The notes under the pieces: generated by a model
What the model was told of the DNA's origin: nothing
Database searches by the model: none
The model's input: only the letters and a program-made list of their open reading frames with translations
Translations under genes and position numbers: made by a program
Assembly (NCBI GenBank): GCA_029204225.1
Contig: CM055104.1
Span: 41,125,912 to 41,189,911 of the forward strand
Direction of reading: 5' to 3'
Length of the DNA stretch: 64,000 nt
DNA from: Diphasiastrum complanatum
Taxonomy: Eukaryota > Streptophyta > Lycopodiopsida > Lycopodiales > Lycopodiaceae
In this document: piece after piece, positions 30,901-50,631 of the stretch
How positions within the stretch are numbered: the stretch's first letter is position 1
How the letters are laid out: the number at the start of each line of letters is the position of its first letter

Positions 30901-31056
30901 CCCCATACATATGTGCACGACATGCGCACAAATAGTTTTATATATATAGATGTATATATGTATATATATACATAAACATACATATATATATATACATGTA
31001 TACATCTATATATATAAAACTATTTGTGCACATGTGGTGCGCATGTGTATGGGGCC
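30901..31056. repeat. 156-bp imperfect palindrome
   Basis: The arms CCCCATACATATGTGCACGA.. (30901) and ..CATGTGTATGGGG (to 31056) pair through CACAAATAGTTTTATATATA in both arms. The centre is AT-rich near 30980. Confidence 0.75.
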
Positions 31057-31369
31057 CCATGCATCCTCCTCCCTCACCCATGCATACACTTTTTTGAGCT
31101 AAAAAGTGAGGAGGAGGATGCATGTATGGGCCCCTCCCCATGCATGTATGGCCCCCTCCCATGTATGCATATTGCACCTCCCCTTGGCCCCACTCCGCAA
31201 TCCAAAATTCAAACGTCTTTGTGCCCCCTCTCCCTCCGTTGGGCATCAGTACATGTATTTTGTGCTCCCAAATTCATAGAATGGAACAACATTTGATATA
31301 TAAATGTATATTTTTCTATGAAATCGATACATGTTTTTTTTTTCTATGCTATCTATATATGTTTAGATC

Positions 31370-33005
31370 TTAATTTAGTACTACTACATCATCCTTTGCA
31401 CCATCATCAATAAAGGGAGGCTTAAGCCTTGCCCTAGCTAGTATGCTCAGGATGATTTCTTGTCTGAATCTGTACACCTGGCTTGATGTGTACTCAGGAA
31501 GTGTAAACTGCAAAATAGAACATTCATGTATTAGTAATGGCTAAAAACATCAACAAAATAGAAAACTAATCATGATTCCAAAAATAAGAATAAACAGAAT
31601 TTATTACCTTAGAAATATCAACATCTTCCGGAAGGTTGAACCACTCAAGAAATAACTTGGCATTGTATAACGTGTACCACCCACAGCTGAATGAATCATT
31701 TTGCTGTGGTGACTGCAAAATAATTCAGCACAAAAGAAATCGATTATGAAACAGAATGAATTAGAATGAAACAATTACATTAGAATACTGATTTCAACAT
31801 GCTATTAAGAAAGACAGAGTTTACTTCCAAACTCACGATCTCCCAATCCACGGAATGGGAAACATCTGTAGGAATATATTTACTTAAATATGGCAGATAT
31901 ATATCTACATCCTTATGCATATTTTTTGTTGAATTCATCTTGACACAAAAACCTTTGATACTATTATTTACAGATCTCTTAATAGAGATCATGTTTAAAC
32001 TCCAATGGTCACTGCAAAATAAGATTGTAAGTACTTTAGCGGCAATTCTGAGAACTATTTAAATTGAAAATATCAATGTTAATGCATAAAACAGGAAGAA
32101 GCACTTAATATATCTTACTTGGTATGATAAGGAATGACCAGATACTTTGTTGCTGGTGTGAATCCACTTGTCAGACACTGTGACAATGTGTCATTATTCT
32201 CCTTGAAGGCCTGGAGCAGAAAGTTACTCAGCACCAACAACTCGTTGGATGAATTTCTTGCAATGTCAAATTGCAAGAGTGTCAGACCGGACTCTATCAT
32301 AGGATCGCTGATAGAAGTCCGTTTGTCTTTGAGATCCAAGTAATCTAAAACTCTAAAATTAATACTAAAATCAAGTTCATCTAGTCTAAAACAAAAAGGA
32401 ATACCAATTTTATCTATAGCATCCAATATGTCTTTCTCAAATCTAAGATACTCATCCGAATCTATATATGTATAAAAATTTGGAGGAGGAGGAGGAGGTG
32501 GATGTGTAGTATCTATAGGAATTAAAGCGGTATCCAAAACAGCTGTAGCTATACTTACAGCATTATCAACAACAACGTTATCTACAATTGATTTCGGGTC
32601 AGGTTTCACAGAATCTGTGGTGTCTACGATCTTTGCTTTCTTTGGAGATCTCTTGGGGGCACTCTGCTTCCTAGGACGCTTCGTAGGAAGATCAGTCCTA
32701 TCTACAGGTGTTGGCCTGGGAGCAGAAGACTGAGATACGTGCAACCTACAGAACCTATCCCTTATTCTCATCAGGAGCTAAAAATCCTTGGGCATTATTG
32801 TGACTCTCTTGGAATGAATGGCAAGCAAAAATGAATCTTCAAAAAAAAGACTAAGGTAATCTTCAGCAGCCTCCTAAAGGCACTGAAGAGCACTGGGTGT
32901 AAATCTGACCAACTGTCCGAGATCATTTCTTGTTATGTTTCAGATAGCACGGTAGAATGGAGCCCTTGGGATCAATAACGCAGTTGATCTCTGGTACTTA
33001 CGTAT
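31370..33005 (-). pseudogene. CENH3-like histone fold fused to Ulp1-type (C48) protease, copy 1
   Basis: Minus-strand exon 1 (33005-32119) opens with an H3 alpha-N/alpha-1 region (RKYQRSTALLIPRAPFYRAI), then ..[40 protein letters not shown] and MRIRDRF, i.e. the H3 histone fold to its end. It continues in the same frame into a basic linker (KRPRKQSAPKRSPKKAK), a poly-Pro run and the first half of a C48 protease (..TKYLVIPYHT). Exon 2 (32011-31837) gives NDHW with the catalytic His. Exon 3 (31712-31608) gives PQQNDSFSCGWY with the Gln and Cys six residues apart as in Ulp1. Exon 4 (31507-31370) ends in TAA. Introns have GTAAG/GTGAGT donors and TTGCAG acceptors, and phases fit. Three in-frame stops (TGA, TAG, TAG) lie in the histone part. 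LLIP and a loop 1 one residue longer than canonical H3 point to CENH3. The N-terminal tail is replaced by copia sequence at 33005. Confidence 0.75.
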
Positions 33006-33240
33006 CTACAGTCTTGACAGACATGTAACTCAACTTTATCATGAGGATAGTCTAGATCAAGAACAATAGAATGTTTAGACATTTGTTGTACATCAGCATG
33101 ATTCAAGTGACCAAGTCTATAATGCCAAAGTAGACCTTTATTTGCATGAATAGAAGTATTGGGCACCTTACTAGAGGCAGAAAAGCAATGACTTATCTAT
33201 AAAAGTATTCATGCCTCTTTCTGAGTGCTATGATCTTGCA
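33003..33240 (-). pseudogene. Copia GAG-pre-integrase fragment
   Basis: Minus-strand LLWHYRLGHLNHADVQQMSK followed by ..CQDCRYVS is the H..H..C..C zinc domain that precedes copia integrase. It abuts the histone sequence of copy 1 and separates it from copy 2. No other copia domain is attached. Confidence 0.75.
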
Positions 33241-33244
33241 TGTC

Positions 33245-34917
33245 CTATCAACAATGAAGGGCTGAAGCCTTGCCCTAGCCAGTATGCTCAGGCTGAAGCC
33301 TTGCTTGATGTGTACTCAGGAAGTGTAAACTACGAGATAGAACATTCATGTATTAGTAATGGCTAAAAACATCAACAAAATAGAAAACCAATCATGATTC
33401 CAAAAATAAGAATAAACAAAGTTTATTACCTTAGAAATATCAACATTTTCCTGGAGGTTGAACCACTTAAAAAATAACTTTGCATTGTATAATGTGTACC
33501 ACCCACAACTGAATGAATCATTTTGCTAGGGTGATTGCAAAAAAATTCAGCACACAAGAAATCAATTATGAAAAAAAATGAATTAGAATGAAACAAATAC
33601 ATTAGAATACTGATTTCAAAATGTTGTTAAGAAAGACAAAATTTACCTCCAAACTAACTTTTGGCCAGTCCACAGAATGGGGAACATCTGTTGAAATATA
33701 TTTACTTAAATATGGAAGGTATATATCTACATCCTTATGCGTATTGCTAGCCGAGTTCATCTTGACACAAAAACCTTTAATAGTATTATCTACAGATCTC
33801 TTAATAGAGATCAGGTTTAAACTCCAGTGGTCACTGCAAAATAAGACTGAAATTTTTTTAGCTGCAATTCTGAGAACGATTTCCATTAATAATGGCAATG
33901 ATAAAGCATTAAACAACAAGAAGCATTTAATATATCTTACTTGGTATGATAAGGGACAAGCAAATATTTTGTTGCTGGTGTGAATATGCTAGTCAGACAC
34001 TGTGACAATGTGTCTTTATTCTCCTTGAAGGCTTGAAGCAAAAAGTTACTCAGCACCAACAACTCATTGGATGAATCTCTTGCAATGTCATATTGCAGGA
34101 GTGTAAGCCCAGACTCTATCACATGATCACTGATAGAAACCCGTCTATTTTTGAGATCCAAACAATCAACAGCTCTATAATTTATACTAAAGTCAAGTTC
34201 CTCTATTCTAAAACAAAAATGAGTACCAATTTTATCTACAGCATCGGCTATGTCCTTCTCAAATTTAAGATAATCATCAAGATCTATATATGTATAAAGA
34301 TTTGAAGGAGGAGGAGATGGTGGATGTGTAGTATCTACAGGAATTACAGGGGTATCCAAAATCAATGTAGCTATATTTACAAAATTATCAAGAGCAGCGT
34401 TATCTACAATTGGTTCCGGGTTAGGCTTCGCAGATTCTGTGGTATCTACTCTCCTTACTTTCTTCAAAGCTCTCTTGGGGGTTTCCTGCTTCGGTAGAAA
34501 GATCAGTCCTATCTAGAGGAACAGGTCTGGCAGCAGCAAACTAAGATACATGTAATTTGCAAAATCTCTCCCTCATTCTCATTAGCAGCTGAAAGCCTGT
34601 GTGCATTATGGTGACTCTCTTGGAATGAATAGCAAAAGGCTCATATAGTCTTCAGCAACTTCCTGAAGGCACTGAAGAATAGTGGGTGTGAATCTAACAA
34701 GCTGTCCGAGATCATTTCTAGTTATGTTTCGGATGACACGGTAGAATGGAGCTCTGGGAATCAATAGAGCGGTTGATCTCTGATACTTACGTATTTCAGA
34801 GAGCCACCTGCTGCGGTTGCGCATTCTAGGTCTAGCAGGAGGTGTAATGGCAACCGCAGGAGCTGAGGACGAGCCATCAGAGAAGAAATCCCTCCTTGTC
34901 TGCTTTCTCCTATCCAT
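33245..34917 (-). pseudogene. CENH3-like histone fold fused to Ulp1-type protease, copy 2
   Basis: A tandem paralogue of copy 1 that keeps the N-terminus. The Met at 34917 starts a basic tail (MDRRKQTRRDFF), a Ser/Ala/Pro stretch, then RSRWLSEIRKYQRSTALLIP, APFYRVIRNITRNDLGQLVR and LQCLQEVAEDYM. A deletion of about 20 bp at the alpha-2/loop-2 region (about 34635) shifts the frame. Beyond it HSKRVTIM and QLLMRMRERF are readable in another frame, with a TAG where copy 1 has CAG. The linker and protease N-half occupy 34467-33941, exon 2 33833-33659 (HWSLNLISI) and exon 3 33534-33430, where the PQQ Gln codon is TAG and the acceptor AG is AA. Exon 4 is partly deleted (33345-33245). Its 5' end faces the shared promoter region. 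Confidence 0.75.
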
Positions 34918-35515
34918 GGAAGTGTACTAGGGGATATCGCACTTGTGCATGATGACTAGGATGAGCAGGGAAGGATTATGAAGCACTCGCAGAGGACCGA
35001 TATGTACGAAAAAAATGTACGGTATATCGGACCTATGCGAGCCGAATATTAGAGAGATCGATTAGTATAGTAGACAGATGCACAAGTCCGATATGAGGAG
35101 ACACGTAGGCAAAAATATCGGACATGTGCGCATGGAAGATAGTAGGCTATATATTGTGAAGGAGGCGCACAAGTGCGATATGCAGAGCGAAAAAAAAAAA
35201 GTGAAAAAAATTCATCGGAGTTTGTGATTTTATATCATGGTTCGCACGTGCAAAAGAACGTTTTGTCGCACGTGTGGGATTTGTATGGCCAAATGCGAGA
35301 GCAACACGTGTCAGGTTGTCATTTTACACATGTGGGATTTCTATAGCCAAATGCGAGAGCGACACGTGTTGTCGAACTGACGAATGAACACGAGACACGT
35401 GTATTGATGTCATTTCACACGTGTCCAATTGTCACCTCACACGTGTCAGTGCCTGCAGTCCAATCGAAAGTAAACACGTGTCCATTGACCGTTGACCACA
35501 CGTGTAAACATTCAG

Positions 35516-35524
35516 TATAAAAAA
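35516..35524 (+). promoter_or_regulatory. TATA box
   Basis: TATAAAAAA directly downstream of the last G-box and about 240 bp before the plus-strand ATG at 35765. Confidence 0.55.
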
Positions 35525-35619
35525 CACGAAACTCGATTAATTTTTTACTTTTTTCTTTCTCAAAATTCACAGCATATCGCTCTTGTGCACGCGCATTCTT
35601 GTCCATTTTTTGCAACGAG

Positions 35620-35625
<6 letters not shown>

Positions 35626-35655
<30 letters not shown>
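35626..35655. repeat. (CA)n microsatellite
   Basis: About 30 bp of CA dinucleotides in the presumed 5' leader of the plus-strand gene. Confidence 0.95.
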
Positions 35656-35657
<2 letters not shown>

Positions 35658-35764
35658 ATTCAGTAGCTACCTGTCGTACATATCCCTCTTGTGCGCGATC
35701 TTTAGAGTTAGTTTTGTTTCGTTTGTTCTCCCTCGCGCACAAGTGAGATATCTATCGTAGTTCC

Positions 35765-36778
35765 ATGGCCTCTTCCTCATGATCTACACGAGATTCAGGC
35801 TCGAGTTCATTTTTTACTAAATTTGGGATTATTGAGAATCTAGACTACTTCCACAGACTATTCAGACCATATTTACATGTTTTCAAGACTGCACAACCAA
35901 ATTCTGACGTATTTTATGAACATTATGTTAGATTCAATTATATACTCAGTAAGTCTGTTATCCCCATAGGTTCACTCCAGTACATGCTTTATACTGATCT
36001 TGTTCATTTCTTCCCAGCTTTCAGACATAGACTAGATAGAATGTTCACCAAATTGTTTGATCTTTTCAAAAGTAGTTCAATGTGTCCTTATTGCAACAAG
36101 AAATGTCGATTGGTTGAATATCATAGTGGTTTCGTACTTTTTCCGTTAGTTCAGATCCCAGATGATGAGGAAGTTTCTGTTGCTGACTTTCCTATGGCAT
36201 CATCCTCTGTTCAGTCATCTATTAAGGATATCAATCACTTCCTAATCGACACCCCTAATAAGAAAAGTGACTTTATTGATGTAAATATTGATGTGCTCCG
36301 AGATTCTTTTATTGGCCAAAATACATCTACTGATGAATCGATCCCTATAGAGAAGTCTAAATGTCTTTTCAATTTGCCTGTATATTATATAAATGACGAT
36401 GTATATTTTACTACAGCTGATTTATGTAAGTTTTTTGACTATTGTGAATATGAGATTTTATGTTTATTATTCGGCACAATTTCCGAATTCTCCGACTTTG
36501 TAGATTTTGAAACAAATGACCTTGTTGCTGGAATTGATTTTGATGATGAGGAGGGACTTATGACCGGTGAAGAATGACTGACTAAGACTTTATCAAATAT
36601 TGCTGAGGATGGGCGAGACAGACCATCCGATGAAGAAATCACGCCATTTCAATCTCAAATGGGCTTTCCTCATCCATCATTAATGCATTTCACTGATGAT
36701 TCCACTTCAGTAGGTGGTCATTATATTGATCATCCTAATCTGCTTGCTGCTGTTGATGAAGAATGTATAAGTGTTTAA
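35765..36778 (+). pseudogene. Unknown plus-strand gene, 337 codons with two internal TGA
   Basis: The ATG at 35765 lies in a good context (CCATGG) downstream of the G-box/TATA promoter. The frame stays open to a TAA at 36778 except for TGA at codon 6 and TGA at 36575-36577; both could be former CGA (Arg). The protein has a Ser-rich start, a hydrophobic/aromatic central part, a possible metal-binding CPYCNKKC at about residue 110 and long acidic stretches (DFDDEEGL and others). It resembles no family I know. It is divergent from the histone-protease gene and convergent with the transposase-like gene, so it may be a further gene of the same element. Confidence 0.45.
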
Positions 36779-36839
36779 ACTTCCTTGCATTAGAATGTTC
36801 TTAACCACTGAATGTGTTTTTTCTAACATATTTTTTATT

Positions 36840-37280
36840 GCGGGATGCTCTCATAATTGATGATTTTGCTGTGAGACGAGGTGGTTTCAGACAACATGCA
36901 TCCTCGTTTCAGAGAGATAGTGGACTTGGCCACTATCTTAGGCATTTCCTAAAGAATGAGATCTGTACTGCTCATTCCAAGCTGAGCCCAGTTGGGGAGA
37001 GTCTTATAATGGCAGTTAAAGCTTTATCATTGTATCTAGAGGACATAAATTTGTTAAGACAAATAAGATCATTTTTGTCAAAAGATCTTATGTTTTGAAC
37101 ATTCTAGGTTTTATTGATGGGAATGTTCCTTTAAGGAACTCCCATTATTCATTGTATTCTACTTATATTGAACTTAGTGGAAATAAGGATAATGCAAATC
37201 TATTAGATGCATACTCTATCAGAGAATTTCTTTTTGACAATACTGCCATAGAATCTGACACACAAGCTGATGATGAATAG
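36840..37280 (+). pseudogene. Possible downstream exons of the plus-strand gene
   Basis: Two open stretches, 36840-37095 (RDALIIDDFAVRRGGFRQHA ...) and about 37104-37280 (FIDGNVPLRN ... SDTQADDE, stop), follow the main ORF on the same strand. The first is preceded by a pyrimidine-rich tract ending TTGCGG, possibly a mutated acceptor, and the second by CATTCTAG. Codon-like composition suggests exons, but the joins are unproven. Confidence 0.35.
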
Positions 37281-37407
37281 CTTTGTATTTTGTTATAATA
37301 CAATCAATACATTTACATTGAGTATTTCTCCTCTCTTGTTCAATGAATTTGCAAGCAATTCTGAACATGTCATGATTTGATGACAATGATGATCTTCTAC
37401 TCAACAA

Positions 37408-40005
37408 TCATCTAATTTTATCTTCTTGTATAAACTTGCATGCTTTTCTAAACTTGTTGTATTGTGCGGACTTTGTTATATGTCGACTCTGAACTCTGCG
37501 GTAGAACCACTGAAACAATTGACAAATGTAGTTTCGTTTTTCATTGGTTCCTCCATGTTGTGTATTTCGATGAAATGCTGCTCGTGCTTGCCAATGTGAC
37601 TTCTCCATCCCTTGTGATGACCATACACTCAAGCTTCCATATGTGTTTGCAAAAAATGTTGTATGATCTCTTAGTATGTGCTGCATATGTCAAAATCATA
37701 ATGTTAGTTTTATGTTTGGATCTAAACATATATGAAAAATTGAAAGCATCTTGAAGAATTTATACTAACCATATAATGAGTGATGTGAACTTCTCCCCAT
37801 GCTTTTGATACTGCATTAACAAACTCGACACAAGTCCTTTGGACAGCTTTCTTATCAATCTCAAAGTATTTATCTTTTCTTAAAATAACAATCATACTGT
37901 CAAACTTCTTCCATACATCAACTTTTAGTACTCTAGTTTTGCCGTCTTTCTCGAAGTCCTGAGTGGCAACAATAATATCTGTCCAGACTGAGTGTTGAAT
38001 ATTAGAAGCCTTACCAGTATAATTTGATAGGAAACGATGTGCTTTTGCTCCTCCTATGCTTGGCTTAGTTGGCATGTTCCCATTCTTTCCTAGAACCTTT
38101 TCATCTTTTTGAAGTTTGACATGTCCCTTATGAAGTCCTGCTTTTGATAAAACATCTTCTAATCGAGAGATAGCTTCTTTTGCTAATGATGTTATCTTAG
38201 TATTCCAAGCAAAAACTATATGAAGATAAATGATCTTTTCTATTAATCTAACTTCTGCATGAAGAGTGCAAAGGGGATAGGTAGCACAGGCTTCTAATTT
38301 GGATCTGCATATTCTCTAGAAATTCATGTACTCCTAGTAACATCTTTTGCCATTCTCATGCGGTACAAACAAGGGTGTTTTGATGTAACACTGTGAGAGA
38401 CATTATACATACAATTCAATGTTTTCAAATCACCTGCTAAGTGCCATTCAACATTGAAGTCTCCAATTCCTGGAACATTGAAGTCTCCATATGGACCTTG
38501 ATGATCCTAGGATAAGATGTCCTTGAGAATATCTATGATAATATATCATGATCCTCCTTCAGCACCTGTCCAAAAAATTAATTAGACTTAGTTAACAATG
38601 AGTTAATACTATTCAATGAATGTAATGTAATAATGAGACTAGTTACCTGAAATGCTGCCAACCACCATATATCATTTTCTGACTAGACATTGAATCTGAA
38701 ATCTTCTTGGTCCTCCGTTTGTGATAGAGCACCATTCATAAGAGTTATACTAACCCTCTCCATCTTCTGCCCTTTCACAATTTCTGACTCATCTAATTTA
38801 AGTACTATGATTATTTTGCCATTCACCTTTTCACAGGTTATATCATAGAATGTGATGATGTATCTCAACAAGTAATTTAGATCAACAAATAAGTTGTTTG
38901 ATGAATTGTAGAATATCGATCTTTCATCAGTTTCATACACCTCCTCAATATGAAATGGAGTTCCAGTGATCTTATGCATACCTATGTTTAATGTGTCCCT
39001 CTCTTTCTTCAAGTGATATGTCCTAGGGATTGGGACTTTTCTAATTTGAACTTGCTTAAAAGCTTCTCTAATTGATTTAAATATTGTTGCATATGCTTCC
39101 CTGCTAATACCTGCAAAATCACAAGCACCCTGAACTATAGTCTTATCTAAATTTTTTTGAATGTCCACCATCAAAGACTTTGTTATTTTACACTTTACAT
39201 TTGAACTCCTATTGTTCATCATGATACGCTCAGTGGATTTGCCTGTCAATATTGTGCCCAATGACACTCCTAGTGAAGCATTGTCTTTAATATTCTGAGG
39301 AGCTACTAATGCAGATCTGCAAAAAAAATAGATAGTTAACAGAACATTACCATAGCTGAAATTAAATCCAAATTTCATTGAAAAACCTACAAAAATCAGG
39401 ATATACTTACTCGAATGCACATTTCGATAACCTCCTTTTGAAATCGTTTGAATATCCTTGCAACTTTGTCGCTTTCGCTTCTTACTTTCAGCCTTCTTCT
39501 TTGCCAATTCCACATCCTTCAATAATTGTAAGTTTTCAAAACGAATAGATTGTAAGATTGATTGCATTTGCTCTAGTTCTGATTTGATATTGATTGTTAT
39601 CTTCTATAATGATTCATTATTTTTTTTAAGTTGTTCATTTTTTTCTAATGTCTTTTGGAGATGACAATCTTTATTCTAACAATAAGAAGATATCCGAATT
39701 TGCTCACCTTCTAAAATGTGAACTTTATTCATATAAAGTTGTTTTCCATGGTTCTGCAATCTTTCACAATATCCTAGTAATCCACTATGCCCATTACATA
39801 TCCATGTAACTAAATGAGTTATTGAGGAGAATGTGGGATGTGTCAAAGTGCTTGGATCTTGTGGATATAATGTTTCATCTATCCACAAATCCAACTTTTA
39901 TTTTTTTCCTTCTGCCCTGTAACGAGAACGATTCTCAGCAGATATTGAATGCCTTTGCCTCCTCTTCTCTACAAAGGTGCCAAATCAATAGGAATATCCA
40001 CATGT
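37408..40005 (-). pseudogene. Multi-exon transposase-like gene
   Basis: Exons on the minus strand are about 40005-39411, 39316-38647, 38565-37770 and 37680-37408, with GTAAGT/GTTAGT donors and TTGCAG/GGACAG/ATGCAG acceptors. The last join is in phase (HYM to HILRDH). Contents in order: basic N-terminus (EKRRQRHSISAENRSRYRAE), DLWIDETLYP, a coiled coil, KKKAESKKRKRQ, LKLDESEI, DFNVEWHLAGDLKTLN with a following PCL, KPSIGGAKAHRFL, then HILRDHTTFF..YGSLSVWSSQGMEKSHWQAR. The D-x-K, PC and G-L..S.QG.EK blocks recall large transposon-type proteins common in invertebrate genomes; this is from memory and unverified. In-frame stops (at least TAA, TAG, TAG, TAG, TAG, TGA) and frame slips show decay. 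An in-frame extension to 37219 is possible. Confidence 0.5.
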
Positions 40006-40624
40006 AGATGATACAATGTCATCATCAAAAGAAACAATAGAGTAATCAGTTGCATCAAAGTACTATGACCAGATTCTATGAAGTAAAACAAAATACTCAT
40101 CTTTGATTATATTATATACTCTGTACGATCAATCCAATCTCCATGCTTGTATGCTTGATTCAAATTTCAAAATGCCGCTCATTTTTTCATTCCAATAGAC
40201 GCTCATATTTCCATTCCAATGTGATGATCACGTTCATAATTGGAGATGGCACCCATATTTTCATTCTCGTGGAAGGAATGCATATGTAAACATTTTGTCT
40301 TTTTTTTTAATTCGAATTTGGGGATGGCGGTCATATTCTAGATAGTGAAAATATTGCCCTTTTCGTAACCAATGGAGGGAATATTTTTGAATTTAGTCAA
40401 GTTATACTGCGAACTGTTTATAGTTCTTAACTATGACTATAGACACTATGGTTAGATCATTGGGAGTTGGGGAGGCCTTGGGAGTGGTGGGGGCAAGCAA
40501 ATAAACAATATTGTTTTTTTTATTTTGATATTTTTTTATATCCTACATGGCATTCCTTAAAGGGTCTTCTTGATATTGAGAACTCCTCTAATGAAATTTC
40601 TTTCTGAGATGTAGCTCGGAAGCT
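40006..40624. other. Non-coding flank with imperfect repeats
   Basis: From about 40170 to 40340 a block of the type G(C/G)CG(C/G)TCATATTTTCATTCC recurs three to four times. It could be the subterminal region of the element ending here, but I found no matching inverted copy near 31.3 kb. Confidence 0.35.
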
Positions 40625-48997: not shown

Positions 48998-49589
48998 TCT
49001 TCTGTTTCAGGTTATGAAAGGATCAGCCATCTTTAGCAAGAATTTGGAGGAGTTACCAATGCCAGAGCATGCTAGATTGATTTCTACTCAAAAATCAACA
49101 CTTTTGCATATGTAGATTGGATCTTTTGTAGGTCAAAGCTCAATATAGGATTATATACTTGATCAATTATGATTTCACACTTGGTTTACTGAAATTAGAC
49201 AATTTTTGGTCTTTTTAGGTAGGTCTCATTGGAGTCTACAAGAAGATATATCAAGTTTCTAGAAATTGCATGTAGAATTTGAGATATTCAATTTTTTGTG
49301 ATTTTGTCAAAACCCTAATTTTGATTGGATCTCTAGTTTTTGAGGTTACTGAACTTCATTTGAGTGTGTTTCAATCTTATGAAGTGGCAAGAATCATTAG
49401 ATTGAGGATAGATAATAGGTTGATCAAGATTTCACTATTCTATGTGTTGATTTTCTAGTTAGAGTGCTAGAAGAGATTTGAGAGGTTCCATATCTTTGTG
49501 ATTTCTTCTTGAGTTCATTTGTTGACATTCAAGAGAGTGCTTTGTGCGTTGGAACAGGTTGAAAGAAGAATATTAGGTCACTTCAACAT

Positions 49590-50631
49590 GGCTACAAGTG
49601 GTGGCTTTATGTTGGAGAGCAATGATAGGCTTACCTCAATCAACTATTCTACTTGGAAGGTGAGGATGGAGTCGTTATTGGAGATGAATGAGTTGATGGA
49701 GATTGTTGCAGGTGTGGAGGAGAGACCTCAAGCACCTCAAGATCAAATGAGGTATGACAAGAGGGCAAAGAAAGCTCTACACATGATTAAGATGAATGTT
49801 ACCAATGAACTTCTCAAGGAAGTTGGTAAGTGCACATCATCTTTGGAGGCTTGGGAAGCTTTGAAAAAGCTTTATGATCCCAAGTCTACATCAAGAGTGC
49901 TTACTCTTAGGAGGTAAATCTTTCAAAGTTTGCAAAAGAAGAAAGAGAGTACTCATGCTTTTGTTTTGAGGGTTAAAACATTCAATGATGAAAGCATTAA
50001 GGAGGTGAAACTTGTTCAAGTTATACTTAATGGCTTGTTGGATGATCATGCTAATCTTGTTCAAAGTTTTGCTATTCAAAAGACTTTGCCAAGTATTGTG
50101 GATTTGCAAGAGACCTTGGTGAATGAGGAGTATAGGCTTCAATCAAGAGGAGATGGATCTACATCAACATCTCATTATGAAGAGGATGCTATGTTCATCA
50201 AAGGCAAGTTCAAGGGCAAAGGCAAAGGAAAGTGGTCTAAAGGGCAAGATCAAGGTGAGACTTCCTCTTTCGGAAAAAAGAAAGATAAGTCAAAGTTTAA
50301 ATGCTTTTATTGTGGAATCAAAAGACATTTTGCAAATGAATGTTTGAAGAAGCAAAGAGATGAAGGTAGCAAGCAAATCAACTTTACTACTAATGATGAG
50401 GATCTAGGTGGTGGTGATTCTCTTTTGATGTGTTCTTCAAGTCCAATATCAAGTGAAGGTGACAAAGATTCATGGTGGATTGATAGTGGAGCTAGTTCAC
50501 ACATGACTAGTCACAAGGAGTTCTTTACTTCTTTGGTCACTTATGACGGAGCCAAGAAAGCAATTCACATGGCCAATGGTGGTGAGTGTGTGATTGAAGG
50601 TACTGGTTCAATTCCTATGTCTCTCTACTAA
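49590..50631 (+). pseudogene. Copia-2 gag and protease start
   Basis: From the Met at 49590: LTSINYSTWKVRMESLLEMN and ..CTSSLEAWEALKKLYDPKS (UBN2). A single in-frame TAA (49915) stands at a likely Gln codon. Then STHAFVLRVKTF, a basic region (KGKFKGKGKGKWSKG), the zinc knuckle CFYCGIKRHFANEC (CX2CX4HX4C) and the protease WWIDSGASSHM with intact DSG. A -1 shift near 50600 moves the frame to the next ORF (LYIPSLSKNLLSVGQM, still protease). Confidence 0.8.

Follow-up and report, generated by a model that had tools for sequence, protein, structure and literature searches.

DNA transposons that carry an Ulp1-type protease are known, and the purpose of the protease is unsettled. Published passages describe VANC proteins, encoded by VANDAL elements, as lifting silencing from related copies (PMC13317346, PMC10398659), and a review passage adds that some VANDAL anti-silencing genes carry an Ulp1 domain (PMC13317346); a further paper reports VANDAL anti-silencing in passages that make no mention of Ulp1 (PMC5735166). 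Here we analyze a stretch of 64,000 nucleotides from the genome of Diphasiastrum complanatum (GenBank assembly GCA_029204225.1, contig CM055104.1, positions 41,125,912 to 41,189,911 of the forward strand), hereafter the window, which contains two copies of a gene joining an H3-type histone fold to an Ulp1-type protease domain. We name this histone-Ulp1 gene HU, and we conclude with near certainty that it is a fused gene of a transposon, of which it is an accessory gene.

Analysis of joined exons revealed that both domains fall within one predicted protein. Because both window copies are broken by stops and frame shifts, the window on its own provides two broken copies only, and the gene model was read from copies elsewhere in the 1.74-Gb assembly containing the window, the one genome covered by our searches. 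In the copy L003, exon 1 is open for 340 codons and is followed by three more exons with GT-AG borders, giving a joined prediction of 491 aa. Joined exons of L003, L024 and L064 gave predicted proteins of about 480-491 aa in which both the Histone family (PF00125; 87.0, 86.0 and 78.2 bits, respectively; cut-off 26.4; E 3e-24 to 8e-22) and Peptidase_C48 (PF02902; 36.1, 32.1 and 38.1 bits; cut-off 20.7; E 1e-7 to 2e-9) exceeded the Pfam cut-offs, at residues 28-123 and 326-450 of L003. These profile matches on three genomic copies bear out the original prediction, made from the letters of the window, of a histone and a protease in a single predicted protein. As read from these sequences, the HU product would consist of a short non-canonical tail, an H3-type fold, a basic, Pro-rich linker and an Ulp1-type (C48) cysteine protease domain. 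The protease is poorly visible exon by exon because it is split over exons and becomes detectable only after splicing: single protease exons among the window open reading frames (ORFs) stayed under the PF02902 cut-off, and when the genome was searched with PF02902 in six frames, three matches were kept among the 150 candidates scored (of 520), none of them inside the window.

The splice borders and the reading frame were compared among 59 aligned HU copies (66 minus 7 duplicates). GT was found at the three donors in 54, 52 and 45 copies and AG at the three acceptors in 47, 49 and 40, which supports the predicted exon borders. Four copies (L003, L024, L063 and L064) are open, with neither stop nor frame shift, over codons 1-479, the span before the stop common to 39 of the 59, which slightly favors a working protein.

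Searches of the assembly indicated a very large family with a fixed architecture. A 220-aa linker-plus-protease stretch of window copy 1, the histone part of L003 and one protease exon, used as probes, gave 5,873, 6,861 and 4,794 first-look candidates, respectively, and all 150 candidates scored per probe matched at E < 1e-65, which excludes chance. The genome likely contains thousands of HU copies, the scored candidates being those confirmed. For the 30 top-ranking loci selected with the histone part, the linker was directly adjacent at 30/30, at least one protease exon lay downstream at 28/30 and all three were present at 18/30; the corresponding counts for 30 loci picked by the linker were 30/30, 30/30 and 23/30, with some loci of the two sets being the same place or near-identical duplicates, so that they do not represent 60 independent cases. 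The architecture shared by the two window copies is thus a property of the family, and the adjacency at all 30 histone-picked loci decides, in this genome, for a fusion and against the possibility that histone and protease are always separate genes. By comparison, a second H3-like family, found with a general histone profile, showed neither linker nor protease exon downstream in 5/5 loci. A scan of IMG/VR for a viral origin, made with the 336-aa protein of L003 exon 1, returned seven pattern matches and no relative, and no match was obtained in an NCBIfam scan of five proteins or in an Rfam scan of the window at gathering thresholds.

The two window copies lie on the minus strand, copy 2 at 33245-34917 and copy 1 at 31366-33005, and each combines the H3-type fold, the basic, Pro-rich linker and the Ulp1-type exons. 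In copy 2, exon 1 (33941..34917), located by its PF00125 match and by alignment to the open copy L003, carries the tail, histone fold, linker and N-terminal part of the protease and is frame-shifted; exon 2 (33647..33833) carries the His motif DHWSL and the presumed Asn replacing Asp, and exon 3 (33430..33534) the QNDSFSCG motif with the catalytic Gln and Cys, both placed by translation and mapping; and exon 4 (33245..33329, by mapping) is partial, with 85 of 174 bases aligned. Copy 1 has exon 1 at 32119..33005 (histone fold without tail, linker and N-terminal part of the protease) and exon 2 with the His motif at 31825..32011, both by translation and mapping, exon 3 with the Gln and Cys motifs at 31608..31712, by a PF02902 match and mapping, and exon 4 at 31366..31507, by mapping. 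In the Pfam scan of window ORFs, the copy 2 histone ORF (34606-34926) matched PF00125 at E 1.5e-14, and the ORF with the copy 1 Cys exon (31566-31724) matched PF02902 at E 0.0015, under the family cut-off. Between the copies, also on the minus strand, the gap between homology blocks (33007..33241) holds a copia GAG-pre-integrase fragment (PF13976, E 2.7e-9, 32972-33196), which replaces the N-terminal tail of copy 1.

The condition of these copies modifies several earlier claims. Copy 1 had been read as one reading frame from histone to protease, a claim that fails at three in-frame stops (TGA, TAG, TAG) in the histone part. Copy 2 does have the same architecture and an N-terminal tail, as proposed, but not an intact frame, with one frame shift inside the histone part, another before the linker and a stop between them. 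Over the 479 codons preceding the usual stop, copy 1 has four stops and two frame shifts, and copy 2 two stops and four frame shifts. Copy 1 shares 95.6% identity with L002 and L007, and copy 2 shares 88.5% with its nearest relatives (L047 and L060), whereas the two are 84.7% identical to each other, indicating that two subfamilies stand side by side with the copia fragment between them. The proposal that the fusion predates a tandem duplication therefore holds in its first part, since the fusion is older than both window copies; the tandem duplication itself was rejected because the copies belong to different subfamilies.

Comparison of ten-kilobase loci, which show gene A, opposite-strand gene B and HU, places HU within a DNA transposon family of about 9 kb and four genes. 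The order reconstructed from the sequences is terminal inverted repeat (TIR), gene A (transposase-like), gene B (reverse), HU, gene D (reverse) and TIR, with opposite-strand gene D seen in L063 and L064. The TIRs are about 35 bp long and start CATTAGAGGAGTTCTC, and the gene-A ends of L065 and of the window correspond to the inverted gene-D ends of L062 and L064. A 24-bp core of the TIR has 1,422 exact matches in the genome (700 forward and 722 reverse), compared with 0 for the reversed control. On contig C1, two convergent TIRs separated by 9,016 bp flank a segment with A, B and HU, and among the C1 matches listed, 7/11 for HU, 2/5 for gene B and 5/8 for gene A have an exact core within 8 kb, where 0.15 would be expected for 11 random C1 places. 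Ends on the gene-A side, predicted from homology or from gene A positions, were found in 3/4 cases, two of the three sharing a flank and so representing one event. Among 150 gene-B matches, 55 had an HU locus (of 256 sampled) within 4 kb, on the opposite strand in 54 of the 55 and mostly about 770 bp apart, and three shifts of the gene-B matches placed none within 4 kb.

In the window, homology ends shared with L061-L065 delimit a transposon copy at 31238..40593 that is truncated on the gene-D side at about 31238. Its gene-A-side TIR (40559..40593, minus strand) was recognized by the inverted match to the gene-D-side ends of L062 and L064 and by the 24-bp core; a second TIR was not found in the window with up to six mismatches allowed. 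Gene B (35783..37098, plus strand), divergent from HU, was delimited from ORFs and has no significant Pfam match; gene A (37430..39603, minus strand), located by homology and by the motif spacing in L065, is degraded here. In L065, gene A shows GD followed by CxxC 20 residues on (D-x20-CxxC) and HxxxxH followed by E 20 residues on (HxxxxH-x20-E), a spacing that we take to resemble that of the CMC and Transib/RAG1-type DDE transposases and a DDE layout that we take to differ from that of the transposases of Mutator-like elements (MULEs). The scanned pieces of genes A, B and D gave no significant Pfam match. Thus, the gene is transposon-borne, as had been supposed, in that HU lies inside a TIR-bounded element, whereas the assignment to Mutator-like elements found no backing, there being no MULE or MuDR domain in the ORFs scanned, gene A in part only.

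Some further features were observed in and near these elements. Dense TIR clusters occur at G000 C1:64.97-66.68 Mb and 95.5-97.9 Mb, and a junction common to two places, L066 and L067, suggests the amplification of a copia element that contains a truncated copy, perhaps within (peri)centromeric sequence. Positions 30901-31054, close to where the window element is truncated, form a 73-bp inverted repeat, 92% complementary with eight bases between the arms, which may be a hairpin resembling a miniature inverted-repeat transposable element or an AT-rich one. By eye, the ORF at L063:9521-9901 resembles the C-terminus of a DNA N6/N4 methylase. A separate long terminal repeat retrotransposon is represented at window positions 49513-50631 by copia gag and Pol beta-barrel-domain ORFs (PF14223, PF22936).

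Comparison of the histone part with solved structures supported an H3-type fold. The L003 histone part matched H3 first (E 2.4e-26), and the fragment from window copy 2 matched fission yeast CENP-A (Cnp1) at E 1.1e-11 and H3 at E 1.4e-9. The fold has one extra residue in loop 1, the motif LLIPRAPF and a non-canonical tail, features that we take to be CENH3 marks. In spite of these marks, CENH3 membership is not established, because the fold shares 54-58% identity with host H3 (L089), as against 47-54% with the second, poly-Pro H3-like family (L084 and L085). The last exon of a host histone H3.3 matched only the structure entry 7ux9_E, an Arabidopsis histone, at E up to 1e-30, which is the basis for placing the host among plants from sequence. 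The H3/CENH3-like fold named in the original prediction is upheld as H3-type; on sequence identity, it appears somewhat closer to host H3 than to the second H3-like family. Positions matching H3 R83, F84, H113, K115, R116, T118, K122 and D123, in what we take to be the H3 numbering and with presumed roles in DNA contact or in the H3-H3 bundle of the tetramer, are kept in 50-59 of 58-59 copies.

The second repeated family was also characterized. It carries an uninterrupted, CENH3-looking H3-like fold behind a poly-Pro tail at 5/5 loci read (L084-L088; G000 C156:45700-48400, C8:36890600-36893300, C17:36125500-36128200, C11:4815300-4817900 and C5:71037400-71040000), with 104-110 bits to PF00125, and L084 and L085 are 95% alike. 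At L092 (G000 C13:7458000-7458450) there is a further divergent histone fold of H3-like type, which shares 46% identity with host H3.

The protease part of L003, compared with solved structures, matched yeast Ulp1 (E 0.0027) in an alignment that pairs the His and Cys motifs. Of the 59 copies, 51 retain the active-site His, 53 the second Gln of QQND and 43 the Cys.

Most sampled copies are now broken, including both in the window, and we therefore considered how far the two folds were constrained as the family spread. Since pooled Ka/Ks (nonsynonymous over synonymous divergence) is biased by the picking of loci for protein similarity, we used the window pair, whose copies were not picked for similarity, together with between-subfamily pairs and counts of shared versus singleton variants. 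Between window copies 1 and 2, synonymous differences numbered 26.5 over 50.8 sites in the histone fold, 27 over 86 in the protease and 27 over 124 in the linker, and nonsynonymous differences numbered 13.5 over 177, 27 over 331 and 62 over 428, respectively. The ratio of nonsynonymous to synonymous differences per site (pN/pS) between the two subfamilies, from 16 pairs formed by hand-chosen sets of four and four copies, was 0.18 in the fold and 0.25 in the protease, compared with 0.30 in the tail and 0.49 in the linker. Nonsynonymous and synonymous protease variants stood at 262:66 among singletons and at 26:35 among variants common to at least four copies (P 1e-8, a rough value because the copies are related; stops are omitted from these counts). 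These patterns of divergence indicate purifying selection on both folds during the spread of the family, and they point to a history in which copies decayed after insertion while the lineages that spread were under constraint.

Several observations weigh against a working HU protein or against its placement in a DNA transposon. At least one stop or frame shift is present in 55 of the 59 sampled copies, 4 having one lesion and 51 more, and the open copy L063 lacks the catalytic Cys. In 51 of the 59 copies, Asn replaces what is presumed to be the catalytic Asp, which makes catalysis uncertain and is the reason that we describe the domain as Ulp1-type. For the fold in the linker-picked set, the shared variants (9:5) did not differ significantly from the singletons (67:18; P 0.30). 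On the side of the element, the parts of gene A that were scanned lack a Pfam match, and six end pairs showed no consistent target-site duplication, one pair sharing TCA and one AC. We consider it quite probable, as judged from the sequences, that the HU protein was made and active in the recent past. The alternative that HU is a dead by-product, a functionless chance read-through of adjacent captured gene scraps, could draw on the lesions in 55 of the 59 copies over codons 1-479, but it is highly improbable given the conserved splice sites, the fixed order at 30/30 histone-picked loci, the four open copies and the constraint on both folds.

We propose as the best explanation overall that HU is a transposon accessory gene for a chromatin-delivered, SUMO-type protease, a proposal that we hold to be about as probable as all others together. 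Starting from the fold, fusion, element and constraint read in the DNA, we infer that HU would be transcribed and that its histone fold would pair with H4 and so be delivered into chromatin, or would bind host H3/CENH3 chaperones, in either case placing the protease on chromatin. There, the protease could remove SUMO, or a modifier related to it, from factors that act in silencing or in centromere loading, and copies of the element could escape silencing, much as is achieved through the DNA-binding VANC/KIU proteins of the Arabidopsis VANDAL elements. That a chromatin-tethered protease of this kind serves anti-silencing is plausible, though we give it somewhat less than even chances. A bolder version, which we consider unlikely, is that the transposon evolved its own divergent H3-type (possibly CENH3-derived) nucleosome subunit with a built-in deSUMOylase, by which the element would mark and unlock its own chromatin; as part of this same unlikely proposal, anti-silencing would act by joining the nucleosome, not by DNA binding.

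The protease might instead aid transposition by acting on, for example, the transposase or repair factors, the histone fold only bringing it to nearby DNA. The authors of the Ginger study propose, in the passages concerned, a role of the Ulp1/OTU domain in transposition or repair (PMC2836005), and HU lies in the same element as the transposase-like gene A; however, the Ginger1 protease is fused to the transposase, whereas the one described here belongs to a separate gene and is fused to a histone fold, and we regard this alternative as having a minor chance of being correct.

A role at the centromere, in which a CENH3-like fold would direct a SUMO protease to the nucleosomes of the centromere or to the machinery that loads CENH3 and thereby alter insertion sites or centromere inheritance, appears doubtful. 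Consistent with such a role are the presumed CENH3-like marks of the fold, the better match of the copy 2 fragment to Cnp1 than to H3 and the fact that 28 of 100 C1 TIR places listed fall in 64.97-66.68 Mb. In a study of Arabidopsis, alphaKNL2 needs SUMOylation for centromere targeting, its SUMOylation promotes CENH3 binding, and a mutant of the SUMO protease ULP1d shows a mild build-up of SUMOylated alphaKNL2 (PMC12903445). However, the fuller L003 fold matches canonical H3 first, and the fold is nearer to host H3 than to the other H3-like family. The TIR cluster was rejected as evidence for centromere targeting, since both places read in it, L066 and L067, share one junction, that of a truncated element inside a copia element, and at least part of the cluster thus reflects local amplification.

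It is likewise doubtful that HU encodes a binder or decoy, a non-catalytic His-Asn-Cys protein such as a histone-fold chaperone trap with a SUMO-binding pseudo-protease. Such a protein would account for the Asn that 51 of 59 copies have where Asp is presumed, but papain-family proteases use Cys-His-Asn, the protease domain is under constraint, and the His, the second Gln of QQND and the Cys are kept in the numbers given above even though most copies are decaying.

For the chromatin-delivered protease that we prefer, the fusion of the protease to a histone fold, with both parts constrained, points to a protease that works on chromatin. Should the HU protein enter nucleosomes, it would amount to a histone variant made by a transposon and equipped with an enzyme, a new route by which a parasite could act against silencing, and, if this is true, it might also serve as a tool to take SUMO off chromatin at selected sites. 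The presence of such a fusion in a DNA transposon family of very high copy number suggests that these parasites meddle with the packaging of host DNA.

Comparison with described systems indicates that Ulp1-carrying DNA transposons are known and that the histone-fold partner is without a precedent in the literature searched: among the matches listed, from open-licence literature, we found no earlier description of a histone-Ulp1 fusion, a transposon-encoded histone or a captured CENH3 of the HU type. CENH3/CENP-A and viral histones presumably share with HU a divergent H3-type fold, an altered tail and a longer loop 1. To our knowledge, neither carries a protease domain. The KIU/Kaonashi genes and VANC of the Arabidopsis VANDAL elements, together with the related Ulp1 MULEs of grapevine, melon and rice, resemble HU, in the passages that describe them, as Ulp1 accessory genes of plant DNA transposons. 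VANDAL and Kaonashi elements are, however, non-TIR MULEs, whereas the HU element has TIRs and a gene A without family assignment, and the available text of the VANDAL review does not use the word histone (PMC13317346), in contrast to the histone fold of HU. Ginger1, as presented in passages of its description, is like the HU element a TIR DNA transposon encoding an Ulp1 (or OTU) protease domain, but the Ginger1 protease forms a fusion with a Gypsy-integrase-like transposase and the 4-bp duplications are of the CCGG type, whereas HU is a separate gene with a histone-fold fusion (PMC2836005). Finally, a hAT family of Pseudocercospora fijiensis, a DNA transposon of about 9.5 kb, contains H3-like sequence in 784 copies within 471 elements, which the passages concerned present as a captured housekeeping copy damaged by repeat-induced point mutation, with no other domain reported (PMC6710886); the histone fold of HU, in contrast, is divergent, fused to a protease and apparently constrained.

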